Assembly: GCA_009838525.1 (NCBI GenBank)
Contig: VXRJ01000018.1
Coordinates: forward strand, 124,001-188,000
Direction: 5' to 3'
Origin: Acidobacteriota bacterium
GTDB lineage: Bacteria > Acidobacteriota > Vicinamibacteria > Vicinamibacterales > UBA8438
Length of the DNA stretch: 64,000 nt
Shown here: positions 2,145-64,000 of the stretch, one piece after another
How the letters are laid out: each line of letters starts with the position of its first letter
Numbering within the stretch: the stretch's first letter is position 1
The notes under the pieces: generated by a model
The model's input: only the letters and a program-made list of their open reading frames with translations
Told to the model about the DNA's origin: nothing
The model's database searches: none
Program-made: the position numbers and the translations under genes

Positions 2145-3929
2145 TTGCATCCGATGCTCCGGCTCGCCCGTTATGCAAGACCGCACCGCGTGCGGTTCAT
2201 CGGCGCGGTGGCCGGGATGGCCGTCTACGCCGCGGCGCAGGGCGCACTGGTCTGGCTCCTGAAGCCGATCGTCGACGAGGTGCTGGTCGCCGATGCGCTG
2301 AGCGATGGAGTGCAGTTCGGAGTAATCGCGGCCGGCATCCTCGGCTTCACCCTGGCCAAGGGGATAGGCGGGTACTGCTCCGCCTACCTGATGACCGACG
2401 TCGGCCAGCGCGTCGTGCGCGACCTGCGTGACGGACTGTTCCGCCACATCCTCGATCAGTCGGCCAGCTTCTTCTCGCGCCATACAACTGGCGGCCTGAT
2501 GTCGCGGATGAGCAACGACATCATGCGGATCCAGCAGGTGCTCTCCGAGACGGCGGGAGACCTGCTGCGCGAGTCGATCACGGTGCTGGTGCTCGCGGGC
2601 GTGCTCGTCTGGATTGACGCGCGGCTGGCTCTTGTCTCCATCTGTTGCGCGCCGCTCGTCGTTTATCCCCTTGTGCGCCTCGGCCAACGGGTGAGACGGA
2701 CCACGCGTCGGACACAGGAGGCCTTGGAGCGGTTGTCGCACATCACCGCGGAGGCGTTTTCCGGGCATCGGATCGTCAAGGCTTTCTCCGCCGAGGGATT
2801 CGAAGGGGGACGCTTCATCCGCGCATCCCAGGCCACTTACCGGATCACGATGAAGGTGGCGAGCACGCTGTCGGCGCTGCCGGCCCTGATGGAGCTGATT
2901 GGCGCCGTCGGTGTTGTTTTCGTCCTCTGGTACGGCTCGACCCGGATCCGTAGCGGGGCGATGTCGACGGGTGACTTCGTGGCTTTCGTCAGCGCGCTGC
3001 TCCTGATGTACGGGCCGGTCAGGAAGCTCAGCCGGGTCAATGCCAACGTTCAGCAGGCGTACGCGGCGTCCGAGCGTGTATTCGAGGTGATGGACACCGA
3101 CAGCGAAGTGCGGGAACGGCCGGATGCCCGGCCCCTGGCGCCGGTCCGCTCCGGCATTGCGTTCCGCGATGTCGGCTTCGTCTACGACGACGCGGAGGGC
3201 GAGGAGGTTCTGCGCGGGATCTCCTTCGATGTCCCGGCCGGGCGCACGGCGGCGATCGTCGGCCTGAGCGGGGCGGGCAAGACGACGCTGGTCAACCTGG
3301 TTCCGCGTTTCTACGACGTGACGGCCGGCGCGATCCTGATTGACGGCGTCGACATTCGGGATGTCACCCTGTCGTCGCTGCGCGCGAGCATCGGCATCGT
3401 GACGCAGGAGACGATCCTCTTCGACGACACGATCGCCAACAACATCGCCTATGGTGCGCCGGGCGCCGGACGAGCCGCCATCGAGTCGGCGGCTCGCGCG
3501 GCTAACGCCCACGAGTTCATCGAGGAGTTGCCCCACGGCTACGACACGACGATCGGCGAGCGGGGTCAGCGCCTGTCGGGGGGGCAGCGCCAGCGGCTCG
3601 CTATCGCGCGGGCCCTGCTTCGCAACGCGCCGATCCTCATCCTGGACGAGGCGACTTCGTCGCTCGACGCCGAGTCGGAGCTTCTCGTGCAGGATGCACT
3701 GATTCACCTGCTGAAGGACCGCACGTCGTTCGTCATTGCGCACCGCCTGTCGACGATTCGCCGGGCGGACGCGATCATCGTCGTGGATGGCGGCCGCGTG
3801 GTGGAGACTGGCCGGCACGAGGATCTGCTTGCCGATCCGGAGAGCCACTACGCCAGGTTGTACGCCAAGCAGATCTTTGGCCGGTCCGCCAGCGGGGCGC
3901 GGGCGCCGGACGGGACGGTGGTCGCGTGA
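2145..3929 (+). CDS. MsbA-like ABC exporter (fused permease and ATPase)
   Basis: A 594-residue half-transporter of the type that flips lipid A, glycolipids or drugs as a homodimer in the inner membrane. Residues 1-310 form the six-helix ABC transmembrane domain, including the coupling segment SFFSRHTTGGLMSRMSND. Residues 340-580 form the ATPase: Walker A GLSGAGKTT, Q-loop VTQETILF, signature LSGGQRQRLAIARAL, Walker B ILILDEATSS and H-loop IAHRLSTI. The TTG at 2145 is preferred because GGGAGG sits 7-8 nt upstream, overlapping the ugd stop; an ATG at 2154 is the alternative. Placement beside ugd and a glycosyltransferase favours a lipid-linked glycan or lipid A substrate, but this is inference. 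Confidence 0.9.
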   Translation: MHPMLRLARYARPHRVRFIGAVAGMAVYAAAQGALVWLLKPIVDEVLVADALSDGVQFGVIAAGILGFTLAKGIGGYCSAYLMTDVGQRVVRDLRDGLFRHILDQSASFFSRHTTGGLMSRMSNDIMRIQQVLSETAGDLLRESITVLVLAGVLVWIDARLALVSICCAPLVVYPLVRLGQRVRRTTRRTQEALERLSHITAEAFSGHRIVKAFSAEGFEGGRFIRASQATYRITMKVASTLSALPALMELIGAVGVVFVLWYGSTRIRSGAMSTGDFVAFVSALLLMYGPVRKLSRVNANVQQAYAASERVFEVMDTDSEVRERPDARPLAPVRSGIAFRDVGFVYDDAEGEEVLRGISFDVPAGRTAAIVGLSGAGKTTLVNLVPRFYDVTAGAILIDGVDIRDVTLSSLRASIGIVTQETILFDDTIANNIAYGAPGAGRAAIESAARAANAHEFIEELPHGYDTTIGERGQRLSGGQRQRLAIARALLRNAPILILDEATSSLDAESELLVQDALIHLLKDRTSFVIAHRLSTIRRADAIIVVDGGRVVETGRHEDLLADPESHYARLYAKQIFGRSASGARAPDGTVVA

Positions 3930-55670: not shown

Positions 55671-56669
55671 CTACCGTGCCGTCAGCCGCAGCCCCTCGGT
55701 GTCGATGCCGCAGTCGAGAAGGCTCGCGCCCGCATCGTCCAGCGCACGCCTGACCGATGCGGTGGCGTCCGGCTCCGCCAGAAAGACAACACAGCCGCCG
55801 CCGCCGGCGCCGCACACCTTGCCGGCGTCGGCGCCGGCGTCGAATGCACGGCGGAAGAGCGTTTCGATCCACTCGGTGGTAACGCCCGGCGCGAGTTGCT
55901 TGCGCAACTCCCATTCGTGTCCGACGGAGCGGGCCAGCTCCGTCCAGTCCGCGCCTTCCATCGCTTCCCGGACGCGGGCGGCGGTGTCGCGAATCTCGTC
56001 GAACAGCCCCGCCAGGCTGGTGTCGCCATCAATTCGGCGCTTCGTCACCTCCCAGTTGTTGATGCCGGAGTCGCGCGATTGTCCGGTGTAGACGACTACC
56101 ATCCGTTCCTCGAGAGCCCGCGGCGGGACGCGGAGCGGCACCCGATGGACACCCGCCGGGCCGAACTCGATCGCGGAGACGCCGCCGTATAGAGCCGGCC
56201 GGTAGTCCTGTCCCCCGGTGGGCACGCCGATGACCTGCACCTCGATATCGCGCGCGAGGTCGAGCAGCGCCTCCGGTTCGATTCGTCGATCCCGCCATCG
56301 CGCCATGGCCGCACAGAGTGCGATGTTCATCGCCGAGGATCCGGCCAGACCGGCGCCGACCGGCGAGTCGGAACGGGTCTCGACGGCCACTCCGCTCGCC
56401 TTGAAAAAGCGGAGGACTCGCGCCGGCAGGCGGAGGGCGGGGTGGGTGTCGTCGAGGTCGGCGACGTCCGCCACCTCGGCGGTGGCGCCAGTGTCCCTGG
56501 CGGCAAGCCGCAGGCGGCCTCCGGCACAGGGGCTGACGGTGCAGGAGGCGCGCAGGGTTATTGCGGCGTTTACCGTCTGCACGCCGTCGTGCAGCAGGTA
56601 GAGTGGCCAGATATCGAGCGTTCCGCCCGCCAGGTCAATCCGGGTCGGGGCGGAAGCCTGAAGGCGCAC
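55671..56669 (-). CDS. GHMP-family sugar kinase
   Basis: A 332-residue kinase of the GHMP superfamily, close to heptose-7-phosphate/galactokinase-like enzymes. The N-terminal sugar-binding motif is APTRIDLAGGTLDIWPLYLL, the ATP loop is SPVGAGLAGSSAMNIALCAA and the C-terminal glycine-rich motif is GKVCGAGGGGCVVFLAEPD. The start is taken at GTG 56667-56669 (VRLQASAPTRID), because the minus-strand TATAAT ends 6 nt before it; a GTG at 56693 is open but lies upstream of that box. It is divergent from the nagZ muropeptide-recycling operon, so a recycled amino-sugar is one possible substrate, but this is unproven. Confidence 0.82.
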   Translation of the reverse strand: MRLQASAPTRIDLAGGTLDIWPLYLLHDGVQTVNAAITLRASCTVSPCAGGRLRLAARDTGATAEVADVADLDDTHPALRLPARVLRFFKASGVAVETRSDSPVGAGLAGSSAMNIALCAAMARWRDRRIEPEALLDLARDIEVQVIGVPTGGQDYRPALYGGVSAIEFGPAGVHRVPLRVPPRALEERMVVVYTGQSRDSGINNWEVTKRRIDGDTSLAGLFDEIRDTAARVREAMEGADWTELARSVGHEWELRKQLAPGVTTEWIETLFRRAFDAGADAGKVCGAGGGGCVVFLAEPDATASVRRALDDAGASLLDCGIDTEGLRLTAR

Positions 56670-56675
56670 GCCGGG

Positions 56676-56683
56676 ATTATAAT
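56676..56683. promoter_or_regulatory. Overlapping divergent -10 boxes (ATTATAAT)
   Basis: ATTATAAT contains TATAAT on the plus strand (56678-56683), toward nagZ, and TATAAT on the minus strand (56681-56676), ending 6 nt before the GHMP kinase GTG. RNA polymerase could initiate in only one direction at a time. Confidence 0.6.
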
Positions 56684-56729
56684 GAGGGACCACGCCGGCC
56701 CCGGCTCCACCGGGAGCCGCCCATCCCGG

Positions 56730-57830
56730 ATGTCCAGAGCCGTGCGGCGCCAGATCGGGCAGTTGATCGTCGCCGGCTTCGACGGTCGGACCATTCCTGT
56801 GGAGCTGGCCGCCCTCGCTCGCGAGTTCGACCTGGGAGGCGTCATTTTCTTCGCGCGGAACATCGACGCGCCGCTGCAGGTGGCGGAGCTCGCGTACGCA
56901 GCAAAGCAGTTGGCGCGGGAGATGCCGCCCTGGGTGAGCGTCGATCAGGAGGGGGGACGGGTGCAGCGGCTGCGCGCGCCGTGCACCGAATGGCCGCCCG
57001 CCGCGACGCTCGGCCGATGCGGCGACCCGGAGCTGGCGGAGGATTTTGCCCGCGCCCTGGCTCGAGAACTGCGGGCGCTCGGGATTACGCTCGACTATAC
57101 GCCGGTGCTCGATGTCGCCACGAACCCGTCGAATCCGGTGATTGGCGACCGGGCGATGTCGTCCGACGCTGCACGGGCCGGTAAGCTCGGGGCAATCGTG
57201 CTGAGGACGTTACAGGAGGAAGGAATCGCCGCCTGCGGCAAGCACTTTCCGGGGCATGGCGACACTTCGGTCGATTCGCACGAGGATCTGCCGGTAGTGG
57301 AGCAGGAGCGGCCAAGACTCGACGAGGTGGAGCTGCCGCCGTTTCGCGCGGCGATCGACGCGGAGGTTGCGATGCTCATGACGGCGCACGTGCGGTACCC
57401 CGCGATCGACGAGGAACAGCCCGCCACGTTGTCGAAGGCCATAGTGACTGATCTGCTGCGAGCGGAGCTCGGCTTTGAAGGACTCGTCGCTACCGACGAC
57501 ATGGAGATGGGTGCGATTGCCAGGCACCGCGACGTCGCGGAGGCGAGCGTGGAGGCGCTGCGGGCCGGTTGCGACTTGTTGCTGCTGTGCGGCGCCGACG
57601 TCGCGACCCAGGTTGCGGTCATCGAGCGGTTGATCCATGCGGTGGAGAATGAAGAGTTGTCCGTGCGCCAGGTGGAACGGGCGCTCGGACGTCAGCGCCG
57701 TGCGAAGGAGCGCTTCCTGGCGGCGGACGCGGACTGGCGGCCGCCGGCGGCGCGCCAGTTGAACGCGTTGTTGGGTTGCGACGCGCACCAGGCGGTTGCG
57801 GAGCGGATGCGGGAGTTTGCCGACGAGTGA
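56730..57830 (+). CDS. nagZ: Beta-N-acetylhexosaminidase NagZ
   Basis: A 366-residue GH3 glycosidase that cuts GlcNAc from anhydro-muropeptides in the cytoplasm during cell-wall recycling. Family signatures are VSVDQEGGRVQRLR, DYTPVLDVATNPSNPVIGDR, the His-Asp catalytic loop KHFPGHGDTSVDSHEDLP and the nucleophile segment LVATDDMEMGAIA. The ATG at 56730 is used because the earlier in-frame ATG (56682) sits inside the TATAAT box. It is first in a seven-gene peptidoglycan run. Confidence 0.93.
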   Translation: MSRAVRRQIGQLIVAGFDGRTIPVELAALAREFDLGGVIFFARNIDAPLQVAELAYAAKQLAREMPPWVSVDQEGGRVQRLRAPCTEWPPAATLGRCGDPELAEDFARALARELRALGITLDYTPVLDVATNPSNPVIGDRAMSSDAARAGKLGAIVLRTLQEEGIAACGKHFPGHGDTSVDSHEDLPVVEQERPRLDEVELPPFRAAIDAEVAMLMTAHVRYPAIDEEQPATLSKAIVTDLLRAELGFEGLVATDDMEMGAIARHRDVAEASVEALRAGCDLLLLCGADVATQVAVIERLIHAVENEELSVRQVERALGRQRRAKERFLAADADWRPPAARQLNALLGCDAHQAVAERMREFADE

Positions 57831-57850
57831 GTCGCGTGGAAGGTACGGGC

Positions 57851-58777
57851 ATGACGAAGCCGCGCGCCCTCCGCCCGGGCGATCGGATCGGGATAATCGC
57901 GCCGGCCAGCCCGTTCGATCGGCAGACATTCGACCGGGGTGTCGCCGAACTGCGGACTCTGGGATTCGAGCCGGTCTTTGAAGAGTCGATCTTCGAGCGG
58001 CGCGCCTATGTGGCCGGATCGGCCGAGACGCGCGGCCGCCGGTTCCAGGCGGCATGGCGGGATCCGTCGACCGCCGGGGTGATGGCGGTGCGGGGCGGTT
58101 TCGGCAGCGCCCATCTGTTGCCGCTGCTCGATCCGGCGGAGCTGGGCCGAAGCCCCAAGGCCCTGATCGGCTGCAGCGACCTGACCGCGCTCCACACTTT
58201 CCTGACACAGCAGTGTGGCCTCGTTACCCTCCACGGTCCGATGGTGGTAACGCTGGCGCGCGGCGAGGCGGGTTATGACCGCGAGTCGTTGCTGGCGCAC
58301 CTCACGGGCCGGCGTCCGCCGCACTCCGTCGTGGCCGGGGAACTCGCGGCAACCCGCGCCGGCCGGGCGCGCGGGCCGCTGCTCGGGGGCACGCTGTCGC
58401 TGCTTGCCGCGTCCCTGGGAACGCGATATGCGTTCGATCCGCCGGACGGTCATATCCTGCTGCTCGACGACATCGGCGAACGGCCGTACCGGCTAGACCG
58501 GCTGCTGACCCAGCTCCGCCAGGCGGGGATCCTGGCCCGCGCCGGCGGCGTGGTCTGCGCCTGCTTCCCGGACTGCGACGAACCGGACGGGTCGCTCACG
58601 GCGCACGACGCGCTCGACGAACTGCTGGCGGACATCCGCGGTCCGGTCGTACGGGGCCTTCCGACCGGCCACACGGCCGGGGCGCCGATGCTGACGGTCC
58701 CGCTCGGTGTCGAGGTGACGGTGGAGGCGGAAGGTGCAACCGGACGCCTGACGGTGGAGGAAGAGGCGGTCGCATGA
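57851..58777 (+). CDS. S66 family peptidase (LD-carboxypeptidase/MccF-like)
   Basis: A 308-residue serine peptidase of family S66. It has the N-terminal RPGDRIGIIAPASPFD, the nucleophile serine in LIGCSDLTALHTF, the glutamate in LLLDDIGERPYRLDRLL and the histidine in GLPTGHTAGAPMLTVPLG, so the Ser-Glu-His triad is complete. Between nagZ and mpl its expected job is removal of the terminal D-Ala from murein tetrapeptides. GGAAGGT precedes the ATG at 57851. It overlaps mpl by 4 nt. Confidence 0.9.
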   Translation: MTKPRALRPGDRIGIIAPASPFDRQTFDRGVAELRTLGFEPVFEESIFERRAYVAGSAETRGRRFQAAWRDPSTAGVMAVRGGFGSAHLLPLLDPAELGRSPKALIGCSDLTALHTFLTQQCGLVTLHGPMVVTLARGEAGYDRESLLAHLTGRRPPHSVVAGELAATRAGRARGPLLGGTLSLLAASLGTRYAFDPPDGHILLLDDIGERPYRLDRLLTQLRQAGILARAGGVVCACFPDCDEPDGSLTAHDALDELLADIRGPVVRGLPTGHTAGAPMLTVPLGVEVTVEAEGATGRLTVEEEAVA

Positions 58778-60195
58778 GTCGCGTCCACCTGATTGGCGTC
58801 TGCGGGACGGCGATGGCGACGCTGGCCGCCATGCTGAAACAGCAGGGATGGATCGTGACGGGATCGGATGTGCAGGCGTATCCCCCGATGGGTCAGTTCC
58901 TTGCGTCGCAGGGCATCGCCCCGCTGATTGGCTACGACGCGGCGCACGTCCCGGCAGATGTCGATCTGGCCGTGATCGGCAACGCGGTATCGCGTGGCAA
59001 TCCCGAAGTGGAAGCGGTCCTCGATCGGCGGATTCGGTACGCCTCACTGGCCGAGACCATCCGCGAGCACTTCCTCTGGGGGCGCCGCACGGTGGTCATC
59101 GCGGGAACGCACGGAAAGACGACCACCACGTCGATGACCGCGTGGGCGCTCGTCGAAGCCGGAGCCGACCCCGGCTTCCTGGTGGGCGGCGTGCCACGCA
59201 ACTTCGACGCCGGCTACCGTCTGGGGGCCGGAGACCTGTTTGTAATCGAGGGGGACGAGTACGACAGCGCGTATTTCGACAAGACCGCCAAGTTCCTGAA
59301 GTACCTGCCGTTCGTGGCGGTGGTGGGCAGCCTCGAGTTCGACCATGCAGACATTTACGATGACATTGATGCCCTGACCCTCGCCTTCCGTCGGTTCGTG
59401 GGCCTGGTTCCCCACCGGGGGCGGCTGTTGCTGGGCGCGGACGATCCCGGTGCCCGCGCGCTGGCGGACGCCGCCCATTGCCCGGTCGAGACATTCGGTT
59501 TCGCGGACGACGCGGACTGGCGGGCGGCCGACGTCGACTACGGCCCGGACAGGACCGCGTTCGACGTGCGCCGTGCCGGTGCGACGATCGCGCGCGTCGA
59601 CTTGCCGCTGCTCGGCGCCTTCAACGTTCGCAACGCCCTGGCTGCGATCGCGGCCGGCGCGGCGGCCGGGGTGGCGCCGGACAGACTGGCGGCTGCCCTC
59701 CGGACGTTTCGTGGCGTCCGCCGCCGGCTGGAGCTGAGCGGCGTCGGGCGGGGCGTGTCGCTCTACGACGACTTTGCGCACCATCCAACAGCAGTCCGCG
59801 AAACGGTCGCGGCGCTGCGTGCCGCCTCGCCCACGGGACGGATCTGGGTACTGTTCGAGCCGCGTTCCGCCACCTCGTGCCGCCGCTTCTTCCAGTCGGA
59901 CTACGCGGCGGGGCTGGCCGGGGCCGACGAGGTCGTGGTCGCCCCGGTTTACCGCACCGCCATTCCGGCGGAACAACGTCTCGACGGAGCCCGCCTCGCG
60001 GCGGACCTGACGGCGTCGGGCACTCGTGCGCGCTACGTGGATTCGACGGACGCGATCGCGGCGGTGGTTGAGGCCGAGACGCGCGCGGGGGATGTTGTGG
60101 TCCTGATGTCGAATGGTGATTTTGGCGGTCTGCGCGGGCAGTTGCGGGAACGTCTTGGCATCGTTGGCAGCGTGGCGGGGGAGACGTCCGCGTGA
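58774..60195 (+). CDS. mpl: UDP-MurNAc:murein tripeptide ligase Mpl
   Basis: A 473-residue Mur-ligase family enzyme that attaches recycled L-Ala-gamma-D-Glu-meso-DAP directly to UDP-MurNAc. It starts MSRVHLIGVCGTAMATLAAM, with the ATP-binding AGTHGKTTTTSMTAWAL. The Mpl-typical EGDEYDSAYFDKTAKFLKYL and VGSLEFDHADIYDD distinguish it from MurC. The C-terminal domain has SLYDDFAHHPTAVRETVAAL and LFEPRSATSCRRFFQ. It sits between the S66 peptidase and pxpB with 4-nt overlaps on both sides. Confidence 0.94.
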   Translation: MSRVHLIGVCGTAMATLAAMLKQQGWIVTGSDVQAYPPMGQFLASQGIAPLIGYDAAHVPADVDLAVIGNAVSRGNPEVEAVLDRRIRYASLAETIREHFLWGRRTVVIAGTHGKTTTTSMTAWALVEAGADPGFLVGGVPRNFDAGYRLGAGDLFVIEGDEYDSAYFDKTAKFLKYLPFVAVVGSLEFDHADIYDDIDALTLAFRRFVGLVPHRGRLLLGADDPGARALADAAHCPVETFGFADDADWRAADVDYGPDRTAFDVRRAGATIARVDLPLLGAFNVRNALAAIAAGAAAGVAPDRLAAALRTFRGVRRRLELSGVGRGVSLYDDFAHHPTAVRETVAALRAASPTGRIWVLFEPRSATSCRRFFQSDYAAGLAGADEVVVAPVYRTAIPAEQRLDGARLAADLTASGTRARYVDSTDAIAAVVEAETRAGDVVVLMSNGDFGGLRGQLRERLGIVGSVAGETSA

Positions 60196-60959
60196 CACTC
60201 GCTGGGGGAGCCGACTGGACCCTGACGCCCGATGGCGATGCGGCGCTTCTGGTCCGCTTCGAGCAGCGGATCGATCCGGCCATCAGTGCGCGTGCGATCG
60301 CATTGGCGTCGGCACTGCGGCAGCGAGGGTTGGAAGGCGTGCGCGATGTCGTGGAGGCGTACGCGGCGGTCACCGTGCATGTCGATCCGACCCGCGCCGA
60401 TATAGCGGCGGTGACAGAGGCGGTGGCGCGTCTTGCCGGGAAGGCGTCGGCGGATGACCCCTCTGGCGGCGCCTCCCGCGAACATCGCCTGCCGGTCTGC
60501 TACGGCGGGACGCACGGCCCCGATCTGGCCGAGGTTGCGCGGTTCGGGGGTTGTGCGGAGGACGAGGTGGTCGCGCGGCATCACGGCGCCGCGTACCGTG
60601 TCTATATGCTTGGCTTCCAGCCCGGCTTCGCCTATCTGGGCTCGGTCGATTCGAGCATCGCCGCGCCGCGCCGCGCCGCGCCCCGGGTCCGGGTGCCGGC
60701 GCGTTCCGTCGGCATCGCCGGCCAGCAAACCGGCGTCTATCCGGCTGCATCGCCGGGCGGCTGGCAACTCATCGGCCGGACGCCCATACGACTCTTCGAT
60801 CTCGACCGGGAGGATCCCTTTCTGCTGCACGCCGGCGACACCGTCCGTTTCGACCCGATCGATGGGGCAACCTACGACCGTCTACTGGAACGGGACCAGG
60901 GGGCCGCCGCGCTGCGCGCGGAGCAGGCGGCCGACGCCGCGCGCGAGATGGTTCGATGA
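60192..60959 (+). CDS. pxpB: 5-oxoprolinase subunit PxpB (KipI family)
   Basis: A 255-residue PxpB/KipI protein. With PxpA and PxpC it hydrolyses 5-oxoproline (pyroglutamate) to glutamate at the cost of ATP. Signatures are GDAALLVRFEQRIDPAI, LPVCYGGTHGPDLAEVARFG, YMLGFQPGFAYLGSVD and SVGIAGQQTGVYPAASPGGW. The GTG start overlaps mpl by 4 nt, which is an unusual neighbour for this gene. Homologues also occur as kinase-inhibitor-like KipI, so the activity is inferred from pairing with PxpC. Confidence 0.92.
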   Translation: MTLAGGADWTLTPDGDAALLVRFEQRIDPAISARAIALASALRQRGLEGVRDVVEAYAAVTVHVDPTRADIAAVTEAVARLAGKASADDPSGGASREHRLPVCYGGTHGPDLAEVARFGGCAEDEVVARHHGAAYRVYMLGFQPGFAYLGSVDSSIAAPRRAAPRVRVPARSVGIAGQQTGVYPAASPGGWQLIGRTPIRLFDLDREDPFLLHAGDTVRFDPIDGATYDRLLERDQGAAALRAEQAADAAREMVR

Positions 60960-61924
60960 TCGCGAGCGTGACCGCCAAGGGCGGCATCGTCGTCGAGGAA
61001 CCGGGGATGCTCACGACCGTGCAGGATCTCGGCCGGTGGGGCTGGCAGCACGACGGAGTCAGCGTTTCGGGCGCGATGGATCCCCGGTCTCACCGCCGGG
61101 CCAATCGCCTGGTGGGCAACGGCGACGAGGCAGCCACCCTGGAGGTGACGCTCACCGGACCGATGCTTCGCTTCGAGCAAGCCTGCCGTATCGCGGTCAG
61201 CGGCGCCGAATTCGAGCTGTTTCTCGACGACTACCGGGTTTCGTGCGACACCGTGCTTCGGGCCGAACCTGGGCAGGTTCTCCGCTTCGGCCGCAGGACG
61301 GACGGCGCGCGCGCCTACTTGGCCGTCGCCGCCGGCGTCGATGTCCCGACGGTCCTTGGCAGCCGCTCGACCCATCTCGGTAGCGGGATGGGCGGCCTCG
61401 AAGGGCGGGCGCTCCGCCGGGGCGACCGTCTTCGGATCGGGCCGGCCGCGGACCCGACGCCGGAGGCAGGGATGCTTGCCGCTCACGCTCCGCGACCAAC
61501 GGTCGGCGGAGGTTCGCAGGTGCGCATATTGCCCGGTCCCCATTGCGATCTCTTTCGGAGCGCCGATCCACTGGCCATGCTTGCCGCGGCCCGATACCGG
61601 ATTCGGCCCGAGTCGGATCGGATGGGGTATCGTCTTGAGGGTGCGGCGATCGCCGGTTGCGACATCGGCGGCCTGTCGCATGGGTTTCTGTCGCACGCGG
61701 TGCCAGCCGGGTCGGTGCAGGCGCCTCCGGACGGCGGCGTCATAGTAGCCATGGCTGATCGCCACACGGCCGGAGGCTATCCTCGCATCGCTATGGTCAT
61801 CACCGCCGATCTTCCTAGATTGGGCCAACTGGCCCCTGGCGACTGGATCGAGTTCGTCCCGTGCGAGATGCAGGAGGCGCGCGCCCGGCTGGCGTCGGCG
61901 GAACAGGAGTGGAGTTGCGGATGA
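60956..61924 (+). CDS. pxpC: 5-oxoprolinase subunit PxpC (KipA/biotin-dependent carboxyltransferase-like)
   Basis: A 322-residue cyclophilin-like-domain protein of the PxpC/AHS2 family. It begins near EPGMLTTVQDLGRWGWQHDG and continues with SGAMDPRSHRRANRLVGN, AATLEVTLTGPMLRF, VAAGVDVPTVLGSRSTHLGS and SHGFLSHAVPAGSVQAPPDG. The final part has TAGGYPRIAMVITADLPRLG. The PxpA subunit gene (LamB/YcsF) is not visible in the window. It overlaps pxpB and murB by 4 nt each. Confidence 0.92.
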   Translation: MIASVTAKGGIVVEEPGMLTTVQDLGRWGWQHDGVSVSGAMDPRSHRRANRLVGNGDEAATLEVTLTGPMLRFEQACRIAVSGAEFELFLDDYRVSCDTVLRAEPGQVLRFGRRTDGARAYLAVAAGVDVPTVLGSRSTHLGSGMGGLEGRALRRGDRLRIGPAADPTPEAGMLAAHAPRPTVGGGSQVRILPGPHCDLFRSADPLAMLAAARYRIRPESDRMGYRLEGAAIAGCDIGGLSHGFLSHAVPAGSVQAPPDGGVIVAMADRHTAGGYPRIAMVITADLPRLGQLAPGDWIEFVPCEMQEARARLASAEQEWSCG

Positions 61925-62937
61925 CGGCGTCGCCGCCGACCGGTCTGGCGACATCGCCGCGCGCCGCAGAGGTGCAGGCGGCGCTGGCTGCCATCGTCGG
62001 TCACGACTGCGTTCATCGCGACATGCCTCTGGCCCGTCACACCACCTTCAGGATCGGCGGGAAGGCCGACTGGTTAGTGGATGCCTGGAGGGAAGAGGAC
62101 CTGGTTGACGTGCTGGCGGTGGTACGGCGGTTCGCGCTGCCGCTCACGATGCTGGGCGGCGGCTCGAACGTGCTGGTGGCGGACGACGGGGTACGCGGCG
62201 TCGTGGTCCGCACTCGTCACGCCGCGGTTTCCGAAGTGACACCCGGGGTAATTCGCGCCTCGGCCGGAGTCTCTGTCAACCGGCTGGTTCGCTGGACGAT
62301 TCACCGTGGTCTGTCCGGCCTGGAAGCGTGGGCCGGCACTCCCGGAACGGTCGGTGGCGCCATTCACGGGAACGCGCACTTCCGGGGTCAGCCGATTGGT
62401 GGCCTTGTAACGGACGTTGGGCTCATTCCCCGGAGCGGCGTCGATCAGCCTGGTGATGTTGCCAGGACGCCGGGCGCCGCGATGGAGTTCAGCTACGACC
62501 GGAGCCGCGTGCAAAGGACCGGCGAGCTGGTCGCGTGGGCCGAGTTCGCCGTGTCGCCGGCCCCGCCGGATCGCCTGCGTGCGATAGCGCGCGAGTCGCT
62601 TCGCTTCCGGAAGCGTACGCAGCCGCTGGCCCAGCCGAGCGCAGGTTGCATCTTCCAGAACCCCGACGTGGTGGCCGAAGGGCTCGAGGCGGGCCAGACG
62701 CCGTATGCCGGGGCCCTTATCGACGGGGCAGGTCTGAAGGGTTGCGCGGTCGGCGGCGCGCGCGTATCGGAAACTCATGCAAACTTCATCGTCACCGAGC
62801 CGGGTGCGATGGCCGTCGATGTTCGCGGGCTGATCCACCGGGTGCAGCGCGCGGTGCGGGAGCGCTACGGCGTTACCCTGCGGCCGGAAGTGGTCTTTCT
62901 GGGCGAGTTCGAAGCGGACTGGAGGGAAACGGCGTGA
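61921..62937 (+). CDS. murB: UDP-N-acetylenolpyruvoylglucosamine reductase
   Basis: A 338-residue FAD enzyme that reduces enolpyruvyl-UDP-GlcNAc to UDP-MurNAc. It has the FAD-binding HTTFRIGGKADWLVDA, LGGGSNVLVADDGVRGVVV and GLSGLEAWAGTPGTVGGAIH. The C-terminal QPSAGCIFQNPD with the serine/cysteine region and GARVSETHANFIV follow. The layout (no extra Tyr-loop domain seen) resembles type II MurB. The ATG at 61921 overlaps pxpC and the stop overlaps murA. Confidence 0.94.
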   Translation: MTASPPTGLATSPRAAEVQAALAAIVGHDCVHRDMPLARHTTFRIGGKADWLVDAWREEDLVDVLAVVRRFALPLTMLGGGSNVLVADDGVRGVVVRTRHAAVSEVTPGVIRASAGVSVNRLVRWTIHRGLSGLEAWAGTPGTVGGAIHGNAHFRGQPIGGLVTDVGLIPRSGVDQPGDVARTPGAAMEFSYDRSRVQRTGELVAWAEFAVSPAPPDRLRAIARESLRFRKRTQPLAQPSAGCIFQNPDVVAEGLEAGQTPYAGALIDGAGLKGCAVGGARVSETHANFIVTEPGAMAVDVRGLIHRVQRAVRERYGVTLRPEVVFLGEFEADWRETA

Positions 62938-64000
62938 ACGGGCACGCAGCGGTGGATCTGCTGGAGCAGACCGTTTCGACGCTTGTTGTCGAGGGTGGAC
63001 AACGGCTCTCGGGATCGATCGAAGTCGAGGGGAACAAGAACGCCGCGCTCCCGCTGCTTGCGGCCTGCCTGCTGACCGACCAGCCGTGCGTCCTGGCGAA
63101 CATGCCGCGCATCAAGGATGTCGCGGTGATGGGCGAACTGCTCCGCGGGCTGGGCGCCGACGTACAGGGAGGTGGCACGACCGAGGTACGGGTCGGTTGC
63201 CGATCAGTCATCAGCGACCAGCCCGATCCTCAATTGGTGGGTCGCCTGCGCGGATCGGTCCTGCTGGTCGGTCCGCTCCTTGCGCGAAGGGGACGCGCGC
63301 GCCTGGCGCCCCCCGGCGGGGATTTCCCGGGCCGCCGTACCCTGGCCGTTCACCTGCAGGCACTGCGCGCAATGGGCGTGCGGGACGTGGAAGGAGAGGG
63401 GCATACGTTCGAGGCGCCGCATGGCCTCCGTCCCGCATCCGTTTACCTGGAGGAAGCTTCTGTTACCGGTACGGAGACGGCAATCCTCGCTGCTGCGGCG
63501 GCGCGCGGTGAATCGGAGATCCGTCACGCCGCCTGCGAGCCGCACGTAGTGGAGCTTTGCGCCTTTCTCGAGGCGATGGGCGCGCAGATCGTGGGGGCCG
63601 GCACGCCGACTATTCGGATCACCGGTCCCGCCGCTCTCGGCGGCGCCTCGCACCGTTTGCGTGGCGACTACATCGAGGCGGGAAGCTGGGCGGTCATTGC
63701 GGCGATCACCCGCGGCGAGATTGAAGTGCGTGGCGCGGAAGCAACGGACCTCGAACCGATAACGTCGGTTCTGCAACGGATGGGAGTCGATTGCGCCGTC
63801 ACGCCGCTCGTGGATGCGAGCGGCGCGGGCGACATCCTGCGGGTCCATCCCTCTCGGCCGCGGGCCATCCGTCAGGTAACCACCGCTCCCTGGCCCGGGT
63901 TCCCGAGCGACATGGTGAGCCTGGTGAGCGTTCTGGCGACGCAGGCGGTTGGCCGGACGCTGATTCACGACTGGATGTACGAGTTGCGGCTTTTCGCTCT
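62934..64000 (+). CDS. murA: UDP-GlcNAc 1-carboxyvinyltransferase MurA (3' end beyond window), Asp at catalytic Cys position
   Basis: The first ~355 residues of MurA, which transfers enolpyruvate from PEP to UDP-GlcNAc as the first committed step of peptidoglycan synthesis. It has the EPSP-synthase-like fold start LSGSIEVEGNKNAALPLLAA, LLTDQPCVLANMPRIKDV, and VTGTETAILAAAAARGE. In the flexible catalytic loop, where most bacteria have PGGCAIGARP, this protein reads PGGDFPGRRTLAVHL, so residue 130 is Asp instead of Cys. Homologues with Asp there are naturally fosfomycin-insensitive. The GTG start overlaps murB by 4 nt. The C-terminus is outside the window. Confidence 0.92.
   Translation, partial: MNGHAAVDLLEQTVSTLVVEGGQRLSGSIEVEGNKNAALPLLAACLLTDQPCVLANMPRIKDVAVMGELLRGLGADVQGGGTTEVRVGCRSVISDQPDPQLVGRLRGSVLLVGPLLARRGRARLAPPGGDFPGRRTLAVHLQALRAMGVRDVEGEGHTFEAPHGLRPASVYLEEASVTGTETAILAAAAARGESEIRHAACEPHVVELCAFLEAMGAQIVGAGTPTIRITGPAALGGASHRLRGDYIEAGSWAVIAAITRGEIEVRGAEATDLEPITSVLQRMGVDCAVTPLVDASGAGDILRVHPSRPRAIRQVTTAPWPGFPSDMVSLVSVLATQAVGRTLIHDWMYELRLFA

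Follow-up and report, generated by a model that had tools for sequence, protein, structure and literature searches.

Genes for 5-oxoprolinase subunits B and C within a murein recycling operon of the Vicinamibacterales

Why should two subunits of a 5-oxoprolinase be encoded in the midst of genes for the recycling of murein and the synthesis of its precursors? The question is raised by one end of the window, the whole stretch of 64,000 nucleotides that was analysed here, which comes from a member of the Vicinamibacterales (Acidobacteriota). An earlier note on this DNA had read there the gene order nagZ–S66 carboxypeptidase–mpl–pxpB–pxpC–murB–murA, and had suggested that the PxpB and PxpC proteins (PxpBC) either process a murein-derived product or act with a partner other than PxpA. 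Below we ask how widespread the arrangement is, how it may have arisen, and which role of PxpBC it favours.

Layout of the operon

All seven genes were found on the plus strand in the order described, with support from Pfam and NCBIfam profiles (Table 1). Reading of the sequence bore out the 4-nt overlap, ATGA or GTGA, that had been claimed for every junction from the S66 gene onward: 58774-58777 (S66/mpl), 60192-60195 (mpl/pxpB), 60956-60959 (pxpB/pxpC), 61921-61924 (pxpC/murB) and 62934-62937 (murB/murA). The S66 gene can be started either at an ATG at 57851 or at a GTG at 57827 that overlaps the end of nagZ. With the latter start a 4-nt overlap (GTGA, 57827-57830) is possible at the nagZ/S66 junction as well. 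The same holds for 20 of 29 related operons, and coupling may therefore reach the whole operon. Since the genes beyond murA lie on the opposite strand, the operon ends at murA.

Table 1. Genes of the operon, with their positions in the window and the profiles on which their names are based.
Gene and product	Position	Strand	Profile support
nagZ, beta-N-acetylhexosaminidase (GH3)	56730..57830	+	PF00933, 9.9e-84; NF003740, 238.7 bits (cut-off 207)
peptidase S66 (LD-carboxypeptidase, LdcA-like)	57827..58777	+	PF02016 and PF17676, over cut-off
mpl, UDP-MurNAc:tripeptide ligase	58774..60195	+	TIGR01081, 406.0 bits (cut-off 388.7)
pxpB, 5-oxoprolinase subunit B (GTG start)	60192..60959	+	TIGR00370, 202.5 bits (cut-off 145.55); PF02682
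pxpC, 5-oxoprolinase subunit C	60956..61924	+	TIGR00724, 279.8 bits (cut-off 230.2); PF02626, over cut-off
murB	61921..62937	+	TIGR00179, 200.4 bits (cut-off 144.5)
murA	62934..64000 (~250 bp more beyond the window)	+	NF006873, over cut-off

The S66 peptidase is named by its Pfam cut-offs only, its score with NF008424 (123 bits) being below the cut-off of 378. Mpl is distinct from MurC, for which a separate match, scoring lower than mpl, was found on contig C11; no murB match was seen in the region around murC. MurA and MurB make UDP-MurNAc, which is used by Mpl. Divergent from nagZ, at 55671..56693 on the minus strand, is a gene for a GHMP-superfamily sugar kinase (PF00288 and PF08544; weakly HddA-like, below cut-off). 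It stands beside the operon in nearly all genomes of the order that we examined, with or without pxpBC, and could be an amino-sugar kinase of the recycling pathway.

Conservation and origin of the insert

The arrangement is old and order-wide, and not the product of chance. It was followed in 247 genomes of the phylum and in a fuller sample of 129 genomes of the order, mostly metagenome assemblies. The PxpB family (PF02682) was carried by 61 of the 247 phylum genomes, and 17 of the 19 carriers belonging to the same order had the series from nagZ to murA, one of these 17 ending at a contig edge before murB. In the order sample, pxpB was present in 103 of 129 genomes and mpl lay directly upstream of it in 88 of these 103, across nine family codes; the adjacency, which the earlier note had seen in this DNA only, is thus conserved and not restricted to one genome. 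The remaining carriers comprised 10 genomes with a pxpA–pxpB cluster, in none of which the cluster occurred together with the mpl–pxpB adjacency, and 5 unresolved cases, mostly with contig ends or a missing mpl. In two single-contig genomes (G119 and G347) pxpA lies megabases away from pxpBC, so the separation of these genes is not an assembly effect. Outside the order, pxpBC in the phylum sample mostly adjoins pxpA and not murein genes. Among the best 80 of at least 591 PxpB relatives in named genomes, six were accompanied by mur genes, all in Acidobacteriota, and most of the others, from many phyla, had pxpA nearby; no mpl–pxpBC arrangement was found in the other phyla sampled.

Some variation was observed within the order. 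Genes pxpB and pxpC read as a single fused ORF at three loci (L074, L090 and L108, in genomes G027, G175 and G191 respectively), which belong to a supported sub-clade of the order and have a distant MurB (28-31% identity). In a further genome (G267:C90:55421-55976) two reading frames share the PxpB match that follows mpl, possibly because of a frameshift or a sequencing error.

Members of the order without pxpBC keep the same operon, which identifies pxpBC as an insert. Specifically, murB follows right after mpl in six genomes (G052, G127, G143, G151, G167 and G013); G013 has its pxp genes elsewhere in the genome, and the other five have none. On a tree of the mur operon proteins, pxpBC has to be gained or lost in the operon four times. 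G151, which is without pxpA too, falls within a family mostly carrying the insert and looks like a case of loss. When the mur-linked sequences were held as one clade in a tree of PxpB and PxpC, the likelihood was above that of the free search (p-AU 0.67). These trees are compatible with one insertion followed by losses, with modest branch supports and the direction of change unsettled. A possible remnant of pxpBC in the mpl–murB gap of genome G229 was discarded, the gap being occupied by opposite-strand ORFs that by eye resemble rhodanese and LolA proteins. In G084 and G198 the operons contain extra ORFs, which were likewise set aside as unrelated by eye.

PxpBC and its relation to PxpA

Whole-genome profile searches revealed one copy each of pxpB and pxpC, both in this operon, and a single pxpA on contig C16, unlinked to pxpBC (PF03746, 310 bits; NF003814, 325.8 bits, cut-off 226). 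A pxpA with a complete pxpBC set of its own had been named in advance as evidence against a special role of the operon-borne genes; the whole-genome search for PxpB and PxpC showed no second set near pxpA. PxpC is assigned at subfamily level only, because it scored 238.8 bits with the strict equivalog NF045499, below the cut-off of 500; the closest solved chain is YbgK (5dud_A).

Does PxpBC, then, work with the distant PxpA? The earlier note had considered a different partner, and PxpBC might indeed act with a non-PxpA protein, or as a KipI-like regulator, in wall metabolism. Such a role would agree with the resemblance of PxpB to chain 2zp2, 'Kinase A inhibitor', and with the fact that all mur-linked genomes in which pxpA was detected have it apart from pxpBC. 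The distribution of the genes makes it very improbable. Of the 61 PF02682-positive genomes of the phylum sample, 58 had pxpA, and the other 3 contained long urea-carboxylase-like ORFs; none of the 78 PF02682-negative genomes tested had pxpA. Within the order, 96 of the 129 genomes had both pxpA and pxpB, 20 had neither, 7 had pxpB only and 6 had pxpA only (Fisher p ~1e-12, without correction for shared descent). The seven genomes with pxpB only have it next to mpl, which would again suit another partner, but these pxpA-negative assemblies are mostly incomplete (five ≤ 88% complete, one 91%). Of the six with pxpA only, four were also without a match to mpl, and in one mpl lies at the edge of a contig. 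That pxpA and pxpBC come and go together although unlinked points to one functional unit.

The conserved residues of the three subunits also argue against another partner. None of the near-invariant residues of pxpA-linked homologues was lost group-wide in mur-linked PxpB or PxpC, and clade-specific residue switches were found in neither PxpA, PxpB nor PxpC of the mur-linked group. Variation at two near-invariant PxpA positions was seen in 4 of 17 sequences, that of the present genome not being among them; this genome has one conserved glycine replaced by R in PxpB and another replaced by A in PxpC.

The surroundings of pxpA in this genome were inspected as well. The start of pxpA (L001, from 2226, minus strand) is overlapped by 4 nt by a gene for a DctP-type TRAP receptor (2223-3518, minus strand), which adjoins no identified TRAP membrane subunit and is absent from the pxpA locus of 16 other genomes of the order. 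As the Bordetella DctP6/7 receptors bind 5-oxoproline (PMC13274462), this neighbour fits ordinary 5-oxoproline metabolism, a hint from a single genome. Upstream of the DctP gene lies an ORF with the appearance of a PIN-domain (VapC-like) protein (L001, 3224-3682, minus strand). By eye, the neighbourhood of pxpA in many genomes of the order (L178, L180, L182, L184-L187 and L189) includes an AMP-ligase gene and argF/argJ/argD-like genes, in varying orientation.

Metabolic step or shared expression

The more far-reaching proposal of the earlier note was that a cyclised or gamma-linked D-Glu product of murein peptides is processed by PxpBC as part of recycling. In such a route L-Ala would be removed from L-Ala-gamma-D-Glu-mDap, the remaining gamma-D-Glu-mDap would cyclise with release of mDap, and the resulting 5-oxo-D- or L-proline would be converted to glutamate via PxpABC, so that the operon position would mark a metabolic step in an undescribed branch of peptidoglycan recycling. 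If true, this would add an extra step to that pathway. The order-wide conserved insertion amid recycling genes, with its translational coupling, is in line with the proposal, and for a free N-terminal gamma-glutamyl residue cyclisation is chemically plausible. We nevertheless consider the route unlikely, synteny alone being in its favour. Murein recycling needs no pxp genes, because pxp-less members of the order keep nagZ–S66–mpl–murB–murA, and Mpl re-uses the intact murein tripeptide in the established pathway, for which no cyclisation is needed. A D-Glu cyclase of a known family is lacking here as a source of 5-oxo-D-proline: neither PF07286 nor PF14336 had a match in this genome, while a B. 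subtilis control gave PF07286, and PF14336 is rare in the order (5 of 129 genomes, 3 of these 5 over cut-off). The lack of clade-specific residue changes and the location of pxpBC away from murein genes outside the order also speak against it. No literature linking murein recycling with 5-oxoproline, or describing an mpl–pxpBC linkage, was found in a search outside which most subscription papers lay. Collectively, the absent cyclases, the use of intact tripeptide by Mpl and the persistence of the recycling genes without pxp make the murein route improbable.

The insert could conversely be a neutral passenger, put into a housekeeping operon by one rearrangement and held there without benefit because coupling hinders its escape. 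A single origin fits this explanation, as do the persistence of the operon without pxpBC and the 10 genomes of the order that have pxpBC at the classical pxpA cluster instead. Persistence in 88 genomes suggests, however, that steady co-expression brings some benefit, and we doubt that neutrality is the answer. That genomes of nine family codes have kept the insert, and mostly its 4-nt overlaps too, exceeds what is expected of a mere passenger and suggests that there is room for a metabolic link. Synteny alone cannot tell a metabolic link from shared expression.

Judged from the sequences, the locus probably encodes part of an ordinary PxpABC 5-oxoprolinase whose genes are split between two loci, PxpBC being produced together with the wall-recycling enzymes. 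In the known enzyme, PxpBC is assumed to phosphorylate 5-oxoproline, and PxpA to open the ring and release glutamate (PMC13274462). PxpB and PxpC would accordingly be the ATP-using half here too, and would assemble with the PxpA encoded elsewhere, which would open the ring to give L-glutamate. We hypothesize that in an ancestor within the order pxpBC parted from pxpA and came to lie between the mpl and murB genes of the nagZ–S66–mpl–murB–murA operon; translational coupling would then have fixed it there, so that PxpBC may now be produced in parallel with the enzymes of wall recycling and precursor synthesis. Glutamine, glutamate and gamma-glutamyl phosphate inevitably give rise to 5-oxoproline (PMC13274462), and the likely job of the enzyme would be the general removal and re-use of 5-oxoproline from these sources, with no obligatory murein step. 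The failure of PxpC to reach the NF045499 cut-off counts against the reading as an ordinary enzyme, as do the seven mpl-adjacent genomes without pxpA. With two of three subunits in a wall-recycling operon and the third unlinked, the locus offers a natural case for separating metabolism from expression as grounds for operon membership, and it allows a testable prediction on whether cell-wall turnover and the handling of 5-oxoproline are linked.

What is new here is the architecture of the operon, and probably not the enzyme itself. Murein recycling of the enterobacterial type shares NagZ, an LD-carboxypeptidase (S66) and Mpl with this locus, where MurA and MurB are also encoded and all these genes are joined in a single operon that carries pxpBC as an insert; we know of no pxp genes in the known murein-recycling pathway. 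The ycsF/ycsI/kipI/kipA cluster of Bacillus subtilis likewise has homologues of PxpA, PxpB and PxpC, whereas the present genome is without a homologue of the YcsI type (D-Glu cyclase family) and has pxpA unlinked to pxpB and pxpC. PxpABC is the prokaryotic 5-oxoprolinase reportedly described by Niehaus et al. 2017. With this system, including the pxpTABC genes of Corynebacterium (PMC13274462), the present genome has in common the same three families in one copy each, the conserved residues and the co-occurrence of A with B and C. In contrast to the pxpA–pxpBC clusters that are the rule outside the order, pxpBC here lies apart from pxpA, inside a mur operon.
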